64,000 nt of DNA, taken from contig NC_014501.1 in assembly GCF_000147335.1 (NCBI RefSeq), forward strand, positions 3,408,300 through 3,472,299. The letters run 5' to 3'. The notes under the pieces were generated by a model, which worked only from the letters and a program-made list of their open reading frames with translations, made no database searches and had not been told where the DNA came from. Shown one piece after another: positions 40,392-46,969 of this stretch. Source of the stretch: Gloeothece verrucosa PCC 7822 (GTDB lineage: Bacteria; Cyanobacteriota; Cyanobacteriia; Cyanobacteriales; Microcystaceae). Numbering within the stretch: the stretch's first letter is position 1; each line of letters begins with the position of its first letter. Position numbers and translations under genes: made by a program.

Positions 40392-42020
40392 TTAATCTGT
40401 TACTTCCTCGATTTCTTCAAAAATACCCTCATCATCTTCAATTTCAGAAGATTCATCTTCATCTTCTTCCAAAAAGTCAAGCTGTTTTCGAACTTCACTA
40501 AACAAGTCATCTGATTCAGAAGATTCCTTGATCTGCTCATCAATCAATTCAACTTCAGGGAATTTTACATGAAACTCTTTTCTCCAATTAGAAATTAAAG
40601 TTTCAGTCCAGTTGACATCATTATTGACCTCTTCTTTAGTACGCCTTATCAACTCTCTCACGCCCTCAGAGGAATTAAGCAATATCATTTTGACAAGCTC
40701 TATACATTTTTCTGACCCGGAGCCTTTAGTTATCATGGTTAGTTTTGCATTTGGCTCGACTAAAACATAAGACCAATGAGATTGATCTCGGTTAAAAAAG
40801 CTATCTTGATCCATTTTGGTAATACTATCAGAAATGGCGTTAAGAGTTTCTGGAATACGGTACTCTGCGTGTATCCTAAGCAAGAACCTTGAAACAGCAC
40901 AAAAAAGAATTTTTTGTCCTAGAATAGTATATAAAATACTAGAATGGCGTAACTCCTTTATACTTTTTTTTTGACTTGCACTTAATCGAGGTTGTTTGGG
41001 TTGAACAGGAATATCTATACCTAGGTAGTCAATCTGTGATATCCAATCTTTGAATGGCTGAAGTTCAGTGAAAAACCACTTAAGCAATTCTTTCGTGCCT
41101 ATTTGAGGAAGTTTAGGATGAGACTCATAATAATCTTTCAAAGCTTTATTACGGTCAATTGGTGAATTAAATGATTTATCTAAAGCTTCTTTTTTATAAT
41201 CTTTTAATAGTTCCTTAATACATTGACTAACCAAATCTAAATTCGTTAGGTAAGGTTCTGATTGGGTCAAGCTTGATGAGGGGGAAGACCATCTAATGAA
41301 TTTTTCTTCAAGCATTTTTTCCTCTAAAAGTTTTCTAGGAATTAATGCTGATACCTTACTGTCATCAAGTAATAGTTGAGTTTGTTTATCGATTGATTTA
41401 GCAGTCTTGTTTATAACTGTAAAGATATTGCGAGTTGCTTGAATTATTTCATCTCTTACCGTTGTGCTTGAGTCTGCATATCCAACCCTGCCCAAATCAC
41501 GAAATACTAAATAAACCACTGGTATATCAAAGGTTTCTGAGCAATTAAAATTATCATTGATTTGTTGAGGGCTTAAAGGCTCTTTTCCAGTATGGGCATT
41601 CCAATATGTTTTTAAAGCAAGAAGTCTATGTTGACCATCAATTACAATTCTAGATACATTTTTATAGAGCTTTAAATTGACCCATTTTTCTATCGGTTTT
41701 CCCTGACTTTTAACTTCTGAAAAGTCCCAAAACTCTGTTTGCGTATTAGAGTTGGGTAAAAGCACAACTACAATTGAATTAAAAAAACGAATACCATCTC
41801 GCGCTAGGTAAGAAAATATCTCTATATTTGCTCTATTTTCATCTAGTTTTCTCTGAACTCGTTCTGAGAAGCTCCAACTGTTTTGAATTTCATCAGCAAA
41901 TTGAATGTTTTCAACAGCATCACTTTGATCGAGAGTTGTTAGAAAGTACCTAACCTCACCAAAAGTACCAGTAATGGCCTTATATTCAATAATCTCTGGA
42001 GACTGATTATCTAATTCCAT
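40392..42020 (-). CDS. DGQHR-domain protein (DndB-related)
   Basis: A 542-residue protein with the signature IVIDGQHRLLALK (DGQHR at 128-132), the mark of the DGQHR/DndB family, which is related in fold to ParB and DUF262-type nucleotide-binding domains. DndB itself is the regulator encoded in DNA-phosphorothioation operons, and relatives occur in 7-deazaguanine DNA modification islands. None of dndA, C, D, E or sspABCD is nearby, so this is a stand-alone relative. The C-terminal ~45 residues are extremely acidic (EEDEDESSEIEDDEG), possibly a DNA mimic or regulatory tail. It follows the GIY-YIG gene with a three-base gap, clearly one operon. Confidence 0.88.
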   Translation of the reverse strand: MELDNQSPEIIEYKAITGTFGEVRYFLTTLDQSDAVENIQFADEIQNSWSFSERVQRKLDENRANIEIFSYLARDGIRFFNSIVVVLLPNSNTQTEFWDFSEVKSQGKPIEKWVNLKLYKNVSRIVIDGQHRLLALKTYWNAHTGKEPLSPQQINDNFNCSETFDIPVVYLVFRDLGRVGYADSSTTVRDEIIQATRNIFTVINKTAKSIDKQTQLLLDDSKVSALIPRKLLEEKMLEEKFIRWSSPSSSLTQSEPYLTNLDLVSQCIKELLKDYKKEALDKSFNSPIDRNKALKDYYESHPKLPQIGTKELLKWFFTELQPFKDWISQIDYLGIDIPVQPKQPRLSASQKKSIKELRHSSILYTILGQKILFCAVSRFLLRIHAEYRIPETLNAISDSITKMDQDSFFNRDQSHWSYVLVEPNAKLTMITKGSGSEKCIELVKMILLNSSEGVRELIRRTKEEVNNDVNWTETLISNWRKEFHVKFPEVELIDEQIKESSESDDLFSEVRKQLDFLEEDEDESSEIEDDEGIFEEIEEVTD

Positions 42021-42023
42021 TTG

Positions 42024-42578
42024 CTAACTCCTCTGGGTATTAAATTTCGGTTGACATAGTTGAATTAATAGGCTTTCTAACTCTCTAGCAATATTTTTGG
42101 GACAGGGGAAAGAAACGAATAAAAATTCATCATTTAGTCTTGAGTTTCCGTATTTTGAAAAAAAACCATCTTCTCGCTCCAAATGCTGAACAAACCTATC
42201 TCTTAAATTGCTGGCAGTGCCTATGTAATCTGGGCTTTGAAAAAGACTACATGAAATTAGCAGATTTTTTAAAATTCTTCGTTCTTTAGGCTGAGAAACA
42301 GCTTTGATAAATTGAGCCATTTTTGGGGATAAACCTACTGATTCTCCACAAGTATCGATAATAAACTTACTTTTATTATTTTCCTCAGAAAACTTGGTTC
42401 TGAATACCGTATTTTGCAGGCGAGTGTTTATCTGGCTAAACAAATCATCTTCTAAAAAATCAAACGCATGATAGAAAGCATAAACACCCGACTTTTCAGG
42501 AAGATAATCGGCCGCGGATCGAGTTGCTGTTACCACAGTAAAATTTTTGAAGAAGTTGTCGTGAACTGTTTCTTCCAT
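42024..42578 (-). CDS. GIY-YIG nuclease family protein with large internal insertion
   Basis: A 184-residue predicted nuclease. The GIY element is GVY at 31-33 and the YIG element is at 118-120 within PDYIGTASNLRDRF. The catalytic Arg128, His132, metal-binding Glu168 and the distal Asn180 (LCQPKFN) all sit at canonical distances after YIG. The two signature elements are ~85 residues apart rather than the usual 10-20, so residues ~40-112 form an inserted domain rich in charged residues. It leads the operon with the DGQHR gene. The pair looks like a small DNA-directed module, perhaps defensive. Confidence 0.83.
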   Translation of the reverse strand: MEETVHDNFFKNFTVVTATRSAADYLPEKSGVYAFYHAFDFLEDDLFSQINTRLQNTVFRTKFSEENNKSKFIIDTCGESVGLSPKMAQFIKAVSQPKERRILKNLLISCSLFQSPDYIGTASNLRDRFVQHLEREDGFFSKYGNSRLNDEFLFVSFPCPKNIARELESLLIQLCQPKFNTQRS

Positions 42579-42740: not shown

Positions 42741-42911
42741 CTGTATCAATCACTTGTCATAGTGACCATAACCCTAATATTAACAGTAACAAGCCAAACC
42801 CCAAACCCGATAAGGAGAGTTTTAGAGCAAATTCAACAAACCGGTGTCATTACAGTAGGCGCGTCTAAAGATGTTATTTCTTTCGGTAATCTTGAACTTA
42901 TCAAAATTTAA
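42741..42911 (+). pseudogene. 5' fragment of an amino-acid ABC binding-protein gene
   Basis: A 57-codon frame (stop at 42909-42911) homologous to the first ~50 residues of the intact gene at 46073. Its segments VTSQTPN, RVLEQIQQTGVITVGASKD and ISFGN align with ITSQTPS, RVLDKIRQTGVITAGARKD and IPFGY. Homology begins at CTG (42741) where the intact copy has ATG, so the start codon is lost, and it ends abruptly after FG. This is a remnant of a duplicate copy. Confidence 0.82.
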
Positions 42912-42970: not shown

Positions 42971-43741
42971 ATGCAATTTCCTGTTTATCTTGAAATTGGA
43001 AACGTTAAGCTTCATCCTCACTTGGTATTCGAGTTAATTGCCTATATAGTGAGTTTTCGCCTTTTATTTTATCATAATTTACAAAATGATGTTATTCCCC
43101 TAAAAGAACGTAGTTTTATTGCTATTGGTGCAATGTTTGGTGCTTTAATAGGGACAAAAATTTTAGTAGTATTTCAGTATTTAGATGTCTATCTTCAAAA
43201 TCCAGAAAAATTACAATTATTATTTGTTAGTCCTGGTAAAACGCTAGTTGGCAGTTTACTAGGCGGATTAATTGGAGTCGAATTAACCAAAAAAATTTTA
43301 GCAGTCAAGTGTTCAACGGGTGATGCTTTTGTTTATCCCTTAATTGTCGGAATGACTATTGGTAGAATTGGCTGTTTTTTAACGGGTTTAGAAGATGGCA
43401 CTTATGGACTGCCCACTAATTTACCTTGGGGAATTGACTTTGGTGATGGAATTCTTCGCCATCCTACCCAACTTTATGAAATTGCTTTTTTAATAGTTTT
43501 AATGGTGTTTTTATTCGTTCGCCAACAGTATAAAATCCGCCAAGGAGATAGATTTAATTTTTTTATGATTAGTTATCTCGGTTTTCGTTTGTTCATCGAT
43601 TTTATTAAACCGACTTTTTTGTCTGTTTTAGGCTTAAGTAGTATTCAAATTGCCTGTTTATTAGGATTAATTTATTATTTTCGTAGTATGCCGCGTCTAT
43701 TTGAATTTCATCAACATGAAACTATTCTCAAAAAATCATGA
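42971..43741 (+). CDS. Lgt-like membrane protein (non-canonical prolipoprotein diacylglyceryl transferase family)
   Basis: A 256-residue, ~seven-helix membrane protein. It keeps family landmarks: GGLIGV at 98-103, GRIGCF at 131-136, RHPTQLYE at 163-170 and FRLFIDFIKP near 205-214. Two residues important in E. coli Lgt are replaced: the His103 position is Leu97 (LLGGLIG in place of FHGGLIG) and the Asn146 position is Cys135 (RIGC in place of RIGN). It therefore probably does not lipidate lipoproteins and may move lipid groups to another acceptor. The ATGA overlap (43738-43741) couples it to the radical SAM gene. Codon use is very A+T rich. Confidence 0.85.
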   Translation: MQFPVYLEIGNVKLHPHLVFELIAYIVSFRLLFYHNLQNDVIPLKERSFIAIGAMFGALIGTKILVVFQYLDVYLQNPEKLQLLFVSPGKTLVGSLLGGLIGVELTKKILAVKCSTGDAFVYPLIVGMTIGRIGCFLTGLEDGTYGLPTNLPWGIDFGDGILRHPTQLYEIAFLIVLMVFLFVRQQYKIRQGDRFNFFMISYLGFRLFIDFIKPTFLSVLGLSSIQIACLLGLIYYFRSMPRLFEFHQHETILKKS

Positions 43742-45117
43742 CTACTCGAAATTATCTTTTTTACAGTCTGACGAATAGCATCTGCTCTCACTGTCTTAAA
43801 AAAGTTGAAGCAAAAATTATTTTTAGAGATGATAAAGTTTATTTACATAAGCATTGTTCAGAACATGGAAACCAAGAAGTTTTAATCGCTGATGATATCG
43901 AATATTATAAGAAATCTCTAGAATTTATTAAACCTGGAGACTTACCAAAACGCTTTAATACTCCGATTAAATTCGGTTGTCCTTATGATTGTGGTTTATG
44001 TCCGGATCATGAGCAACATAGCTGTGTAACCCTTTTAGAAGTGACAGATAAATGTAACCTTTCCTGTCCAATTTGTTATGCAGAATCAGGAACAGAAGAA
44101 TTTTTTACTGGCTCGGATCTTCCTAGGGTACATCGTAGTTTAGCACAAATAGAAACTATGTTAGATGCGATTGTTGCCAATGAAGGAGAACCTCAAGTCG
44201 TGCAAATTAGTGGGGGCGAACCGACTATACATCCAGAATTTTTTAAAATATTAGATTTGGCTAAAAGTAAACCTATTAAACATTTAATGATTAATACTAA
44301 TGGGATTAAAATTGCCAAAGATTTAGAATTCTGTGAGCGGCTGTCTAACTATATGCCTAATTTTGAAATATATCTTCAGTTTGACAGTTTAAATTCAGAA
44401 GCGTTAAAAGTATTACGAGGAGTGGATTTAAAAACCATTCGCTCTCAAGCGATTGCTAATCTCAATAAATTTAATATTTCTACAACTCTAGTTGTCACTC
44501 TAAAAAAAGGACTTAATAATCATGAGATTGGTGATATTATTGAGTATGCTTTACAGCAAAAATGTGTTAGAGGAGTAACTTTTCAACCGGTTCAAATAGC
44601 TGGCAGATTAGACAATTATGATGTCAAACGAGATCGCTATACTTTAACCGAGGTGCGGCGAGATATTTTAACTCAAAGTCCTTATTTTAAACCTGAAGAC
44701 ATTTTACCTATTCCTTGTCATCCTGACTGTTTAGCGATGGGCTATGCGCTTAAACTAAATGGTAAAGTTATCCCGTTAACGGGGTTAATTTCTTCAGAAG
44801 ACTATATTAAACTTATCCCCAATAGTATTCAATTTGAGCAAAATGTTGAGTTTAAAAAGCATTTTTTTGACCTTTTTTCTACGGCTCATTCTCCTAAATC
44901 TGCTACCGCTTCCTTAAAACAGCTACTTTGTTGTTTGCCGCTTGTTAAAGTTCCCGATGGGTTAACTTATGAAAATATTTTTCGAGTTTTGATTGTTCAA
45001 TTTCTCGATCCTTATAATTTTGATGTTCGTTCGGTTAAGCGCTCTTGTATTCATATTGCTCACCCTGACGGAAGAATTATTCCCTTTGATACTTACAATA
45101 TTTTTTATAGAAATTAA
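43738..45117 (+). CDS. Radical SAM protein, tetraether-lipid-synthase (Tes)-like
   Basis: A 459-residue radical SAM enzyme. The SAM cluster is Cys106, Cys110 and Cys113 (CNLSCPICYA), and GGEP is at 159-162. An N-terminal rubredoxin-like module uses Cys16, Cys19 and Cys40 (CSHC ... HKHCSEHG), followed by an auxiliary cluster motif CPYDCGLCPDHEQHSC at 81-96. The C-terminus has KRSCIHIAHPDGRIIPF. This order of modules is that of the archaeal tetraether synthase family (Tes, MJ0619 type), which joins lipid tails by C-C bonds. The Lgt-like neighbour supports a lipid substrate. One C-terminal cysteine of the IPFC motif is Asp here. Confidence 0.87.
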   Translation: MTTRNYLFYSLTNSICSHCLKKVEAKIIFRDDKVYLHKHCSEHGNQEVLIADDIEYYKKSLEFIKPGDLPKRFNTPIKFGCPYDCGLCPDHEQHSCVTLLEVTDKCNLSCPICYAESGTEEFFTGSDLPRVHRSLAQIETMLDAIVANEGEPQVVQISGGEPTIHPEFFKILDLAKSKPIKHLMINTNGIKIAKDLEFCERLSNYMPNFEIYLQFDSLNSEALKVLRGVDLKTIRSQAIANLNKFNISTTLVVTLKKGLNNHEIGDIIEYALQQKCVRGVTFQPVQIAGRLDNYDVKRDRYTLTEVRRDILTQSPYFKPEDILPIPCHPDCLAMGYALKLNGKVIPLTGLISSEDYIKLIPNSIQFEQNVEFKKHFFDLFSTAHSPKSATASLKQLLCCLPLVKVPDGLTYENIFRVLIVQFLDPYNFDVRSVKRSCIHIAHPDGRIIPFDTYNIFYRN

Positions 45118-45121
45118 AGAT

Positions 45122-45457
45122 ATGGAAAGAGTACCCCCAGGCGTTAAGAAAATCTTTAAGAGTTATTTGATAGTTATTGCAGTTGATTTAATTATAAGTA
45201 TTATTATAACTGTAATTTATCAAATTAAAAACAGTTCATTTTCAATAATTAATGATTCAAAAAATATATTTGTTGGAACAAAATATGTTCCATTTGCCTT
45301 TTTAGTAACTCTAGCATTTGCTCAATCGTTTATTCTCTTACCCGCCTCTTTAATATTATTATTTTTACGAAAATGGGAAATAGCTGTAGGAATAATCTTA
45401 GCTGATTTGACAATGTTATTTTTAGGTGCTTTATTGTGTGGGGGCGTGCTTGGATAA
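45122..45457 (+). CDS. Small three-helix membrane protein A
   Basis: A 111-residue protein starting four bases after the radical SAM stop codon. A basic cytoplasmic start (RVPPGVKKIFKSY) is followed by about three membrane helices. The C-terminal motif LLPASLILLFLRKWEIAVGI then ILADLTMLFL is shared with the next gene. An in-frame upstream extension to 44993 would overlap the radical SAM gene and is unlikely. It belongs to the same operon; function is unknown. Confidence 0.78.
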   Translation: MERVPPGVKKIFKSYLIVIAVDLIISIIITVIYQIKNSSFSIINDSKNIFVGTKYVPFAFLVTLAFAQSFILLPASLILLFLRKWEIAVGIILADLTMLFLGALLCGGVLG

Positions 45458-45490
45458 TTTTCGCTCTTTTAACTCATTAAATTAACTCAA

Positions 45491-45814
45491 ATGAACAATT
45501 ATAAATCGAGTCTAACAAAAATATTTTTGACTTATTTAATTATTATAACAATAAATATCATTCTTTATTCTGAATCTGGATCTGCTGCTATATCTTTATA
45601 TTCATCTATTCACTTGGATTTTCTTCCTCCTTGGCTTTTATCAATTTTAAGTATATTTAGTATTTTTACTCTAAGTTATACCTCATTTTTGACCTTACCA
45701 GCAGCCATAATTTTATTAATACTTAAACAATGGGAAATAGCAGTAGGAATAATTTTAGCTGAGTTAACAGTTCCCTTTCTATTTTTTCTATTCTGTCTTT
45801 ACAACATCAAATAA
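45491..45814 (+). CDS. Small three-helix membrane protein B (paralogue of A)
   Basis: A 107-residue membrane protein 33 bp downstream of protein A. Its C-terminal half, TLPAAIILLILKQWEIAVGI then ILAELTVPFL, is a clear paralogue of protein A, while the N-terminal half has diverged. Three membrane helices are likely. The pair could form a heteromeric partner of the Lgt-like protein, which is inference. Confidence 0.75.
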   Translation: MNNYKSSLTKIFLTYLIIITINIILYSESGSAAISLYSSIHLDFLPPWLLSILSIFSIFTLSYTSFLTLPAAIILLILKQWEIAVGIILAELTVPFLFFLFCLYNIK

Positions 45815-45816
45815 CC

Positions 45817-45918
45817 TTGAGTCTTTTAACTGAATTAACAATTGCATTTTTAATTTTTGTCTTATGGGCGGCACTCTTTGCTTCAATTGAAACCCAACTC
45901 CTCATCAATCAGTCTTAA
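45817..45918 (+). pseudogene. Third, truncated copy of the small membrane protein
   Basis: A 34-codon frame directly after protein B, in a different frame, reads SLLTELTIAFLIFVLWAALF and ends IETQLLINQS. The TELTIAFLIF part matches AELTVPFLFF of protein B and ADLTMLFLGA of protein A. It has no start codon and lacks the conserved LKQWEIAVG segment, so it is a 3' remnant of a third tandem copy. Confidence 0.5.
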
Positions 45919-45943: not shown

Positions 45944-46073
45944 TAAGTAGTCGGACATAAATAAAGTCCACTGTGTCAAGAATTGTAAAACGCCTACAAC
46001 CCTTCTCCATTGCCCATTCCCCATTGCCCATTCCCCAAACTCGCAGTTAACTTTAATTTTGTCCAGGTACTTA
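45944..46073. mobile_element. MITE-like element, copy 1, abutting the binding-protein start codon
   Basis: A 130-bp noncoding element. The left end TAAGTAGTCGGACATAAATA and the reverse complement of the right end TAAGTACCTGGACAAAATTA form terminal inverted repeats. Each end is repeated almost exactly, in opposite orientation, in the copy at 60022-60205. The interior holds a run of CATTGCC/CATTCCC heptamers. TA dinucleotides bound it. Its last base is the A of the ATG of the gene at 46073, and its right end supplies the only Shine-Dalgarno-like AGG (46065-46067). Confidence 0.72.
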
Positions 46074-46969
46074 TGTACAAACAACTTGCCATAACCGCCA
46101 TAACCCTATTATTAACCATAACCAGCCAAACCCCAAGTTTAGCCGGCAGAGTCTTAGATAAAATTCGACAAACTGGTGTCATCACCGCAGGCGCTAGAAA
46201 AGATGCTATTCCCTTTGGCTATGTCAATGAGAAAGGACAATGGGTAGGATACTCCCTCGATATATTAGAACTCATTCGACAACAAACCGAAAAACAATTA
46301 GGAAAACCGATCAAACTTCAATTAGTAGAAGTCACCCCCGAAAATCGCTTTGCAAAAATTAAAGACCAAAGTATTGATATTGAATGCGGCTCAACAACTG
46401 TCACTTGGGCTAGAGATAAAGAAGTGGATTTTTCAGTCAGTTATTTTGCATCAGGCACACAACTATTAGTAAAAAAAGGCAGTAATTTAGGAACCATTGA
46501 ATCCTTAGCAGGAATGAAAATCGGGGTAATTCCCAACACCACCAACGAAAGAGCTATTAAACTACAACAACCGGCGGCACAATTAGTCACCGTTAAAGAT
46601 CGTTTTGAAGGATTACAAAAATTAGAAAAAGGAGAAATAGACGGCTTTGCGAGTGATGGAATCGTTTTACAAGGATTAAAACGAACAGTCAAGAATGGCA
46701 ATAGTCTAGAAATCGTTCCCGAATATCCCTATATGTATGAATCCTATGCTTGCGTAATTCCTCAAGACGAATCTCAATGGCGGGATTTAGTTAATTATAG
46801 TTTAGTACAGTATATGGAAGGTATTGTCAGCGATCAAATGTCCTCTGTCGCTATCTATGAGCGCTGGTTTGGGCAAAATGGCAAAGTCCCCTACTCAAGA
46901 GACACCATAAACTCCTATTTTCAGGGAATTATCGATAGTTATGAATGGATTCCTTTGATTAATTATTAA
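46073..46969 (+). CDS. Amino-acid ABC transporter substrate-binding protein (family 3)
   Basis: A 298-residue periplasmic binding protein with a signal peptide (MYKQLAITAITLLLTI to about residue 22). The mature part follows the polar amino-acid binding-protein pattern: GVITAGARKDAIPFGY, QWVGYSLDILELI, ECGSTTVTWAR (binding of the substrate alpha-carboxylate and amino group), then GMKIGVIPNTTNE. The frame stays open back to 46010, but those codons are MITE repeat DNA, and the decayed duplicate at 42741 confirms a start at MYKQ-type sequence. No permease or ATPase is adjacent. A hairpin terminator follows at 47099. Confidence 0.9.
   Translation: MYKQLAITAITLLLTITSQTPSLAGRVLDKIRQTGVITAGARKDAIPFGYVNEKGQWVGYSLDILELIRQQTEKQLGKPIKLQLVEVTPENRFAKIKDQSIDIECGSTTVTWARDKEVDFSVSYFASGTQLLVKKGSNLGTIESLAGMKIGVIPNTTNERAIKLQQPAAQLVTVKDRFEGLQKLEKGEIDGFASDGIVLQGLKRTVKNGNSLEIVPEYPYMYESYACVIPQDESQWRDLVNYSLVQYMEGIVSDQMSSVAIYERWFGQNGKVPYSRDTINSYFQGIIDSYEWIPLINY

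Follow-up and report, generated by a model that had tools for sequence, protein, structure and literature searches.

What do four tightly packed genes of the cyanobacterium Gloeothece verrucosa PCC 7822 do together, when the first encodes a relative of prolipoprotein diacylglyceryl transferase (Lgt) and the second a radical SAM (rSAM) protein resembling archaeal tetraether-lipid synthase (Tes)? The genes lie at positions 42971–45918 of a stretch of 64,000 nucleotides (contig NC_014501.1, positions 3,408,300–3,472,299), here called the window, and a sequence-only reading had proposed them as a cassette of an unreported lipid pathway. The coordinates of the open reading frames (ORFs) confirm the close packing of the four genes, with an ATGA overlap of 4 bases followed by gaps of 4 and 33 bases; the noted end, 45918, is about 100 bases past the last gene. 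The genes are as follows.

42971–43741, + strand: Lgt-like membrane protein, 256 residues (ORF), a paralogue of prolipoprotein diacylglyceryl transferase
43738–45117, + strand: Tes-fold rSAM protein, 459 residues (ORF), neither Tes nor TrsS
45122–45457, + strand: small membrane protein 1, 111 residues from ATG (ORF), Cys106 being five residues before the C-terminus
45491–45814, + strand: small membrane protein 2, 107 residues (ORF), a paralogue of protein 1, Cys102 being five residues before the C-terminus

The principal observation is that three protein families, a divergent Lgt paralogue, a Tes-fold rSAM protein of its own clade, and a small Cys-containing protein, co-occur across phyla. The cassette is probably a dedicated bacterial lipid-modification module. 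The enzymes are of known kinds, in a partnership with no earlier description in the literature searched; neither the Lgt/rSAM pairing nor the small family was found described there, the search having been made mostly without subscription papers.

With one genome scanned per species, relatives of the rSAM protein turn up at 73 loci, distributed over Cyanobacteria, Bacillota (mostly Paenibacillus), Bacteroidota, Planctomycetota, Acidobacteriota, Gemmatimonadota, and unplaced bins. In 60 of the 73, the sequence retrieved around the rSAM gene also contains an Lgt-like gene. For the 13 remaining loci, 12 genomes were searched and 11 encode an Lgt-like protein elsewhere; the thirteenth locus, L068, starts at a contig end and falls outside the genome search. 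Altogether, the search covered 22 genomes: an Lgt-like protein is found in 21, and in 18 there is a weaker second or third match, consistent with ordinary Lgt. Twenty further regions of the same rSAM clade (clade A, see below) contain an Lgt-like gene in 18 cases (not in L253 and L255). Among the 93 clade-A loci (73 + 20), the two genes form a same-strand pair in 78, with the Lgt-like gene first in 74 and the rSAM gene first in 4, and no more than 150 bases separate them in 66 (gap counts use longest-ORF starts, and overlaps are overstated). Since the pair recurs across several phyla, adjacency in this genome only is excluded, and a cassette peculiar to this genome is rejected. A supposed Lgt/rSAM fusion in L075 is also rejected, the two matches being in different frames. 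In four of the eleven loci with a dispersed Lgt-like gene (L121, L123, L125, and L126), a short ABC-permease-like gene stands directly after it; such a gene also stands just before the rSAM gene in L010 (PF00528 checked for L123 and L010).

Co-occurrence is seen as well in a phylum-wide sample of 292 cyanobacterial genomes. An rSAM match reaches E ≤ 1e-50 in ten (nine with at least 62% identity and one, G098, with 31%), and eight have an Lgt-like protein at E ≤ 1e-20, all eight within these ten and from seven genera; the hypergeometric chance of the 8-in-10 overlap is 3.8e-14, ignoring shared ancestry. The window's own family has the rSAM gene in 1 of 50 genomes, other matches scoring 43.9 bits or less, and this scattered presence suggests transfer or loss. 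Relatives of at least 50% identity occur in 11/217 Acidobacteriota, 19/216 Planctomycetota (one a fragment), and 2/249 Bacillota genomes, each set including the genome chosen as its centre.

Fifteen sister-type rSAM regions (30–42% identity, several of them tandem pairs) include six with an Lgt-like gene (L260, L264, L266, L267, L268, and L272). In all six the rSAM gene comes first, with an overlap in five and a gap of 1.1 kb in L260; the pair is kept under reversed gene order, hence, the link outlasts rearrangement. Pfam analysis of the wider neighbours at the sister loci did not find a shared third enzyme. None of five comparison regions (Tes-type L273 and L274, TrsS-type L275 and L276, and L277 with a protein of about 700 residues) contains an Lgt-like gene. 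Nine plasmid records have an rSAM relative, and four of the six examined carry the Lgt-like/rSAM pair: those of Mycobacterium branderi and M. avium, in which the Lgt-family gene comes first, followed by two small-protein genes and then rSAM, and those of Persicobacter psychrovividus and Nonomuraea. Conserved adjacency, co-occurrence, and persistence under turned gene order thus uphold the functional link between the two enzymes that had been proposed from the window.

The first protein is Lgt-like, as the sequence-only reading had it. It passes the gathering score of PF01790 (89.2 vs. 24.9 bits), and its structure model (predicted local distance difference test score, pLDDT, 87.5) has the Lgt fold, matching E. 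coli Lgt (5azb) at Z 13.7 over 239 residues, with the next row at 6.8. The equivalog cut-off of TIGR00544 is not reached (46.6 vs. 118.9), and an ordinary Lgt is encoded elsewhere in the same genome (7.84 Mb, 7 contigs searched), with 284.9 bits vs. 88.8 for the cassette protein. Two motifs of the cassette protein mark the departure from Lgt.

43235–43267, + strand: GKTLVGSLLGG, aligned to GGMSFHGGLIG of E. coli Lgt (His103 region); His103 is replaced by Val, with Lys at 100
43361–43375, + strand: GRIGC; the Arg143 equivalent is kept, Asn146 is replaced by Cys

The alignment comprises 74 A-type Lgt-like rows, the window protein being counted twice; of the 12 rows labelled B, three (L051, L070, and L071) are fragments of A-type copies. 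Arg143, Gly154, Tyr235, and Arg239 are constant in 74/74 A-type rows, and so are Lys at position 100 and Cys at position 146; position 103 is occupied by Val (72), Ile (1), or Leu (1). The protein shares with Lgt (PF01790, TIGR00544, PDB 5AZB) the fold and these four residues; unlike Lgt, it has Val (Ile, Leu) at 103, Cys at 146, His at 26, and the GKT motif. Among the conserved residues, Arg143, Gly154, and Arg239 are essential in E. coli. In the E. coli Lgt crystal structure, Arg143 and Tyr235, and Arg239 via water, touch the diacylglyceryl part of phosphatidylglycerol (PMC4728403). Tyr26, His103, and Asn146 are each essential in E. coli Lgt, while other Lgts have Tyr, Trp, or Phe in place of His103 and Cys in place of Asn146 (PMC13251419); Val, Ile, and Leu are not among the replacements of His103 named in the relevant section of that paper. 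Ten control Lgts (the window's genome contributing one and other searched genomes nine) have His (8) or Tyr (2) at 103, Asn (8) or Cys (2) at 146, and Tyr (8) or Phe (2) at 26, two of them combining Tyr103 with Cys146. Positions 26, 103, and 146 thus show variation in ordinary Lgts as well. The M. branderi protein (His26, Leu103, and Cys146, with Arg143 and Arg239) shares Y26H and N146C with clade A and with MSMEG_5408, the second Lgt homologue of M. smegmatis, which is compared here by its published description only (PMC13251419).

In a tree of 48 Lgt rows, 11 canonical Lgts lie on one side of a 99% branch and 37 Lgt-like rows on the opposite side (long branches flagged), 28 A-type rows being set apart by a further branch. 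The tree leaves out seven named rows (short or split copies, and L003, the window's duplicate), and of the remaining A rows it retains one in three and a few selected others.

The rSAM protein contains the Pfam domain Radical_SAM and an N-terminal zinc-ribbon/rubredoxin-like domain. Its nearest solved relative is GDGT-MAS (7TOL, E 7e-67), and its own genome has no second match at E ≤ 0.001. The AlphaFold model (mean pLDDT 76.5; predicted template modelling score 0.82; residues 364–407 under 50) matches 7tom at Z 39.8, with a root-mean-square deviation of 3.3 over 404 residues, and 7tol at Z 38.9; the next structural family is MoaA, at Z 18.1. The comparison with Tes suggested by the sequence-only reading therefore reveals a full Tes fold, with 31–32% identity over the structural alignment, and the motifs quoted there, Cys16/19/40 (with His43), CPYDCGLCP, and CNLSCPIC, are confirmed. 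The ligand regions are as follows.

43783–43866, + strand: rubredoxin-like Fe site C16-X2-C19-X20-C40-X2-H43, like C9X2C12X20C33X2H36 of GDGT-MAS (PMC9433317)
43978–44019, + strand: N-terminal auxiliary cluster motif C81/C85/C88 and the following His, corresponding to MJ C73/C77/C80; 42/42 clade-A rows
44053–44076, + strand: radical SAM CX3CX2C motif C106/C110/C113; 42/42 clade-A rows
44716–45090, + strand: remodelled C-terminal auxiliary region with C327, C331, C398/C399, and C437, from the alignment

Within clade A, the rubredoxin-like site retains C16 and C19 in 41/42 rows (one gap) and C40 and H43 in 42/42. The rSAM protein and GDGT-MAS/Tes (MJ0619, 7TOL/7TOM) thus share the full-length fold, the rubredoxin-like site, the N-terminal auxiliary Cys residues, and the SAM cluster. 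The C-terminal site differs. Cys338, Cys455, and Cys470 of Tes, assigned to the C-terminal cluster from conservation, are all kept in 4/4 sister (B) rows, in 8/8 Tes-like rows, and each in 38/39 other rows, a group that mixes TrsS, tandem rSAM, and unassigned rows. Clade A keeps them in 23/42, 0/42, and 0/42 rows, respectively, and the window protein has Ser436 at the Cys455 site and Asp451 at the Cys470 site. Clade A has instead C327 (41/42), C398 and C399 (40/42), and C437 (42/42); C327 and C437 are also frequent among relatives outside the clade. Met439 and Tyr459 are reported to be completely conserved across 1000 archaeal homologues, although the M439A variant stays active; in the mechanism proposed for Tes, a sulfur of the C-terminal cluster holds the half-reacted chain (PMC9433317). 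With Cys455, Cys470, and Tyr459 lost, the fold is that of Tes and the proposed chain-holding site is altered.

Curated models and phylogeny agree in separating the protein from both named families, and its identification as Tes or TrsS is rejected. It scores 296.8 bits with Tes model NF045702 (cut-off 450), as compared with 288.7 for clade-A member L208 and 561.4 for the positive control L195. The best-scoring NCBIfam model is TrsS NF045646, with 317.7 bits over residues 12–455 (cut-off 490); a genuine TrsS, L157, used as a positive control, scores 690.6. For the tree, thinning at 80% identity reduced 208 rSAM sequences to 93; the window protein and MJ0619 brought these to 95, and every second clade-A row was omitted, leaving 74; a quick search was used, with support from the Shimodaira–Hasegawa-like approximate likelihood ratio test only. 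Clade A is supported at 100 in this 74-row tree and groups with the Lgt-linked sister rows at 84, which is not strong; this group also holds two rows with no Lgt in their region, L189/L258 and L259, and the long-branch row L237. MJ0619, the bacterial Tes-type rows, and TrsS (including L157) lie across a 99% branch from clade A, and MJ0619 joins nine bacterial Tes-type rows (one scored by NCBIfam) at 99. The suggestion that the protein is itself a Tes is therefore not sustained: it falls under the curated cut-off, lies across the 99% branch, and has lost Tyr459 and two of the three inferred C-terminal cluster Cys residues. It also differs from Tes in having an Lgt-like partner.

These data bear on a narrower form of the lipid-modification module, i.e., a bacterial pathway for membrane-spanning lipids in which the rSAM protein would join two acyl tails and the Lgt-like protein would supply or remodel the head-group side. 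We regard this as possible but doubtful. It agrees with the Tes fold over 404 residues and the retained rubredoxin-like, N-terminal, and SAM-cluster ligands; with the proposal that bacterial Tes homologues make membrane-spanning lipids (PMC8941075, PMC11868695); and with the FabG-like short-chain dehydrogenase/reductase (SDR) and aminotransferase genes adjoining the sister tandem-rSAM clade. Against it, Cys455 and Cys470 are gone in 42/42 clade-A rows, Tyr459 is replaced by Ile in 39/42, and the Met439 position retains Met in only 27/42, the window protein having Val. Acidobacteriota have both a true Tes (L195, 561 bits) and clade-A enzymes, so clade A is not simply the bacterial Tes, and a limited search of partly accessible literature found no report of such lipids in cyanobacteria or Paenibacillus.

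The sequence-only reading overlooked the small membrane proteins as part of the conserved set, of which a better-conserved version with a near-invariant Cys is found elsewhere. Proteins 1 and 2 of the window are indeed paralogous (40% identity, E 2.7e-8 in the own-genome search; a 70% DNA repeat, 45326–45439 and 45683–45796, within the genes); their description as three-helix proteins is approximate, a hydropathy scan giving four segments each. The own-genome search yields no convincing paralogue of protein 1 beyond the tandem copy (third row E 0.7), and no confident Pfam or NCBIfam family is found for either (Lit PF07314 reaches 13.8 on protein 1 vs. a gathering score of 24).

Elsewhere, a single family of small proteins is encoded within 150 bases downstream of the rSAM gene in 51 of the first 73 loci. 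With the added regions, it has 64 members in 63 loci, 60 of them at most 150 bases downstream of the rSAM gene or overlapping it. Helix 2 carries a QxxYxxP motif (Q 64/64, Y 63/63, P 63/64), and the last helix has Cys in 63/64 and Asn in 60/64; Pfam gives nothing above cut-off for three members (L007, L034, and L066). Profile comparison aligns the mycobacterial small-protein pair with the family, Cys on Cys (hhalign 49%, score 30.5). Sixty control proteins were compared, the first of 87 eligible: 59 of them give at most 1.93%, and the exception, at 57%, is a Bacteroidota small protein of L043, which likewise aligns Cys on Cys and whose gene adjoins a cassette. The window's pair (P0003/P0004) reaches 4.7% (score 20.9). 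Against the family's hidden Markov model (HMM) with filters off, protein 1 scores 17.7 bits, co-linear over 77 HMM positions, and protein 2 scores 8.6 bits. Both sit where family members do, with Cys five residues before the end; the matches are marginal, and protein 1 is possibly a divergent member of the family.

A general enrichment of Cys at the end of the last helix was considered and dropped as evidence. In de-duplicated small proteins near cassettes it is seen in 32/42, vs. 19/45 far from them (Fisher p 0.002), the signal being carried by one family. Small membrane proteins of L058, L060, L266, L267, L268, and L272 have an N-terminal zinc-ribbon-like Cys pattern (e.g., CPECGA..CWIC), and several of these have Cys near the end of the last helix.

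Another narrower form of the module assigns the small protein the role of substrate: the Lgt-like protein would add a diacylglyceryl thioether to the last-helix Cys, and the rSAM protein would modify this anchor. This, too, is held tentatively and with more doubt than belief. The Cys (63/64) and the position of the family beside rSAM in several phyla speak for it, as do the Cys-to-Cys alignment of the mycobacterial proteins and the location of the last Cys 16–22 residues after the final basic residue in 61/64 rows. Such spacing resembles the geometry of lipoprotein signal peptides. On the other side, the helix 2 motif is conserved as strictly as the Cys, and a passive acceptor would have no need of such a motif; a lipobox (tested as [LVI][ASTVI][GAS]C) is present at the last Cys in 0/64 members; the two window proteins match the family poorly; at some loci a gene of this kind is missing from the neighbourhood; and beyond the family, Cys is no commoner than in controls. 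The most specific combination, in which the Tes-fold protein with its rebuilt site and the repurposed Lgt would make a tail-modified or membrane-spanning diacylglyceryl anchor on the end-of-helix Cys of the small protein, seems unlikely.

The broader reading, that of a dedicated lipid-modification module, leaves the order of the enzymes free. The Lgt-like protein would bind phosphatidylglycerol at the outer leaflet via the kept Arg143/Arg239 site, and would transfer its diacylglyceryl group to a molecule other than an ordinary prolipoprotein. The rSAM protein would bind lipid in a Tes-like hydrophobic tunnel; GDGT-MAS was isolated with bacterial phospholipids in its tunnel (PMC9433317). It would then abstract H from an unactivated tail carbon and form a C–C, C–S, or other bond there, using the altered C-terminal auxiliary site. 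The small protein would either act as acceptor via the Cys of its last helix or be a partner bound to the membrane. Of the lipid pathway drawn from the window alone, the link and the folds stand; the Tes identity does not, and the Lgt-like protein departs from Lgt at three E. coli-essential residues. A cross-linked lipid is a possible product, although the sequence does not imply it.

Several results weigh against this reading, the loss of essential Lgt residues and the absence of a lipobox being among the heaviest. A fold alone does not demonstrate lipid activity. In the Lgt-like protein, position 26 is His in 70 of the 74 A-type rows and a gap in 4; since Tyr26, His103, and Asn146 are gone, the protein may bind lipid without transfer. 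For the small proteins, the lipobox is absent, as said above; the Cys enrichment disappears when the family's 19 members are removed (13/23 vs. 19/45, p 0.31); and 28 of 103 loci have no nearby small multi-helix protein, although the scan, a simple and crude hydropathy-based helix caller, missed several seen otherwise. The linkage has exceptions, too: an Lgt-like gene was not detected in the genome search of G336, a metagenome-assembled genome (MAG); two rSAM-positive cyanobacteria, G053 (clade A) and G098, have no Lgt-like protein, the former counting against the reading; 9 of the 15 sister-type loci have no Lgt-like gene nearby; and the relatives in M. vanbaalenii (L278, 7971–10339) and a haloarchaeon (L282, 5977–8140) have no Lgt neighbour and are followed by a methyltransferase gene. 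Finally, the M. branderi rSAM protein is without the N-terminal auxiliary Cys residues, the C-terminal three being kept.

A function outside lipids, e.g., small-molecule methylation of the kind formerly proposed for MJ0619 or modification of a peptide, appears improbable. It could be read from two other relatives that directly precede methyltransferase genes, and from the Pfam name HMPTM zinc ribbon, which echoes the old pterin assignment. However, the conserved partner has a lipid-transferase fold, and the fold match covers the C-terminal lipid-pocket domain, though residues 364–407 have pLDDT under 50; the GDGT-MAS authors were unable to corroborate the pterin role of MJ0619 (PMC9433317). 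Least convincing, and likewise improbable, is a second, weak lipoprotein diacylglyceryl transferase with the rSAM gene as an unrelated neighbour: substitutions of His103 by Tyr, Trp, or Phe in other Lgts (PMC13251419) and the two control Lgts with Tyr103 and Cys146 would allow it, but co-occurrence, adjacency conserved even with reversed order in sister loci, residues at 103 outside the replacements named in that source, and the 99% branch between 11 canonical Lgts and 37 Lgt-like rows speak against it.

Among other relatives, a sister clade (L263, L265, and L269–L271) has two tandem rSAM genes. In the three loci scanned (L263, L265, and L270), FabG-like SDR genes stand beside them; two of these loci have aminotransferase genes, and one has a FabA-like match that stays under the cut-off. 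This gene content suggests another lipid pathway with Tes-fold enzymes. Relatives of about 600–860 residues (about 30–34% identity, e.g., L277) are common in the 217 Acidobacteriota genomes searched and are candidate makers of the membrane-spanning lipids of this phylum. In Planctomycetota locus L226/L266 (4992–6395), the rSAM frame contains one in-frame TGA and hence appears as two ORFs; selenocysteine, as in TrsS, and an error are both possible. Sister locus L264 (7154–8571) has an Lgt-like gene followed by genes for an ArsP-type permease and a Se/S-carrier-like protein.

The flanks of the cassette contain a further feature, outside the module.

42742–42804, + strand: decayed copy of the start of a solute-binding-protein gene; its partner is 46074–46136 (79% over 63 nucleotides, spacing 3332)

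The intact gene, of family 3 (SBP_bac_3), follows the cassette at 46010–46969, and the cassette may have arrived with duplication or recombination at this gene. The DNA at 45815–45918 resembles a last-helix remnant (repeat 45454–45481 and 45811–45838), possibly a third, decayed copy of the small-protein gene. Upstream, on the − strand, lies a two-gene pair (40392–42578) that may be a mobile or defence unit: one product is DGQHR/DndB-like, and the other has a GIY-YIG match below threshold.

The distinction between clade A and true Tes has consequences for surveys. The existence of bacterial homologues with no assigned role is pointed out in the GDGT-MAS paper (PMC9433317); bacterial Tes homologues have been published as candidates for membrane-spanning lipids (PMC8941075, PMC11868695) and counted in Black Sea bacterial MAGs (PMC11868695), and such surveys treat them as candidate makers of palaeo-environmental proxy lipids. 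As at least one large, Lgt-linked clade is distinct from true Tes, counting its members as Tes could mislead. The partner genes named here make the rSAM reaction testable. If the proposed role is true, a lipid or protein–lipid modification would be added to the biology of cultivable cyanobacteria, paenibacilli, planctomycetes, and others.

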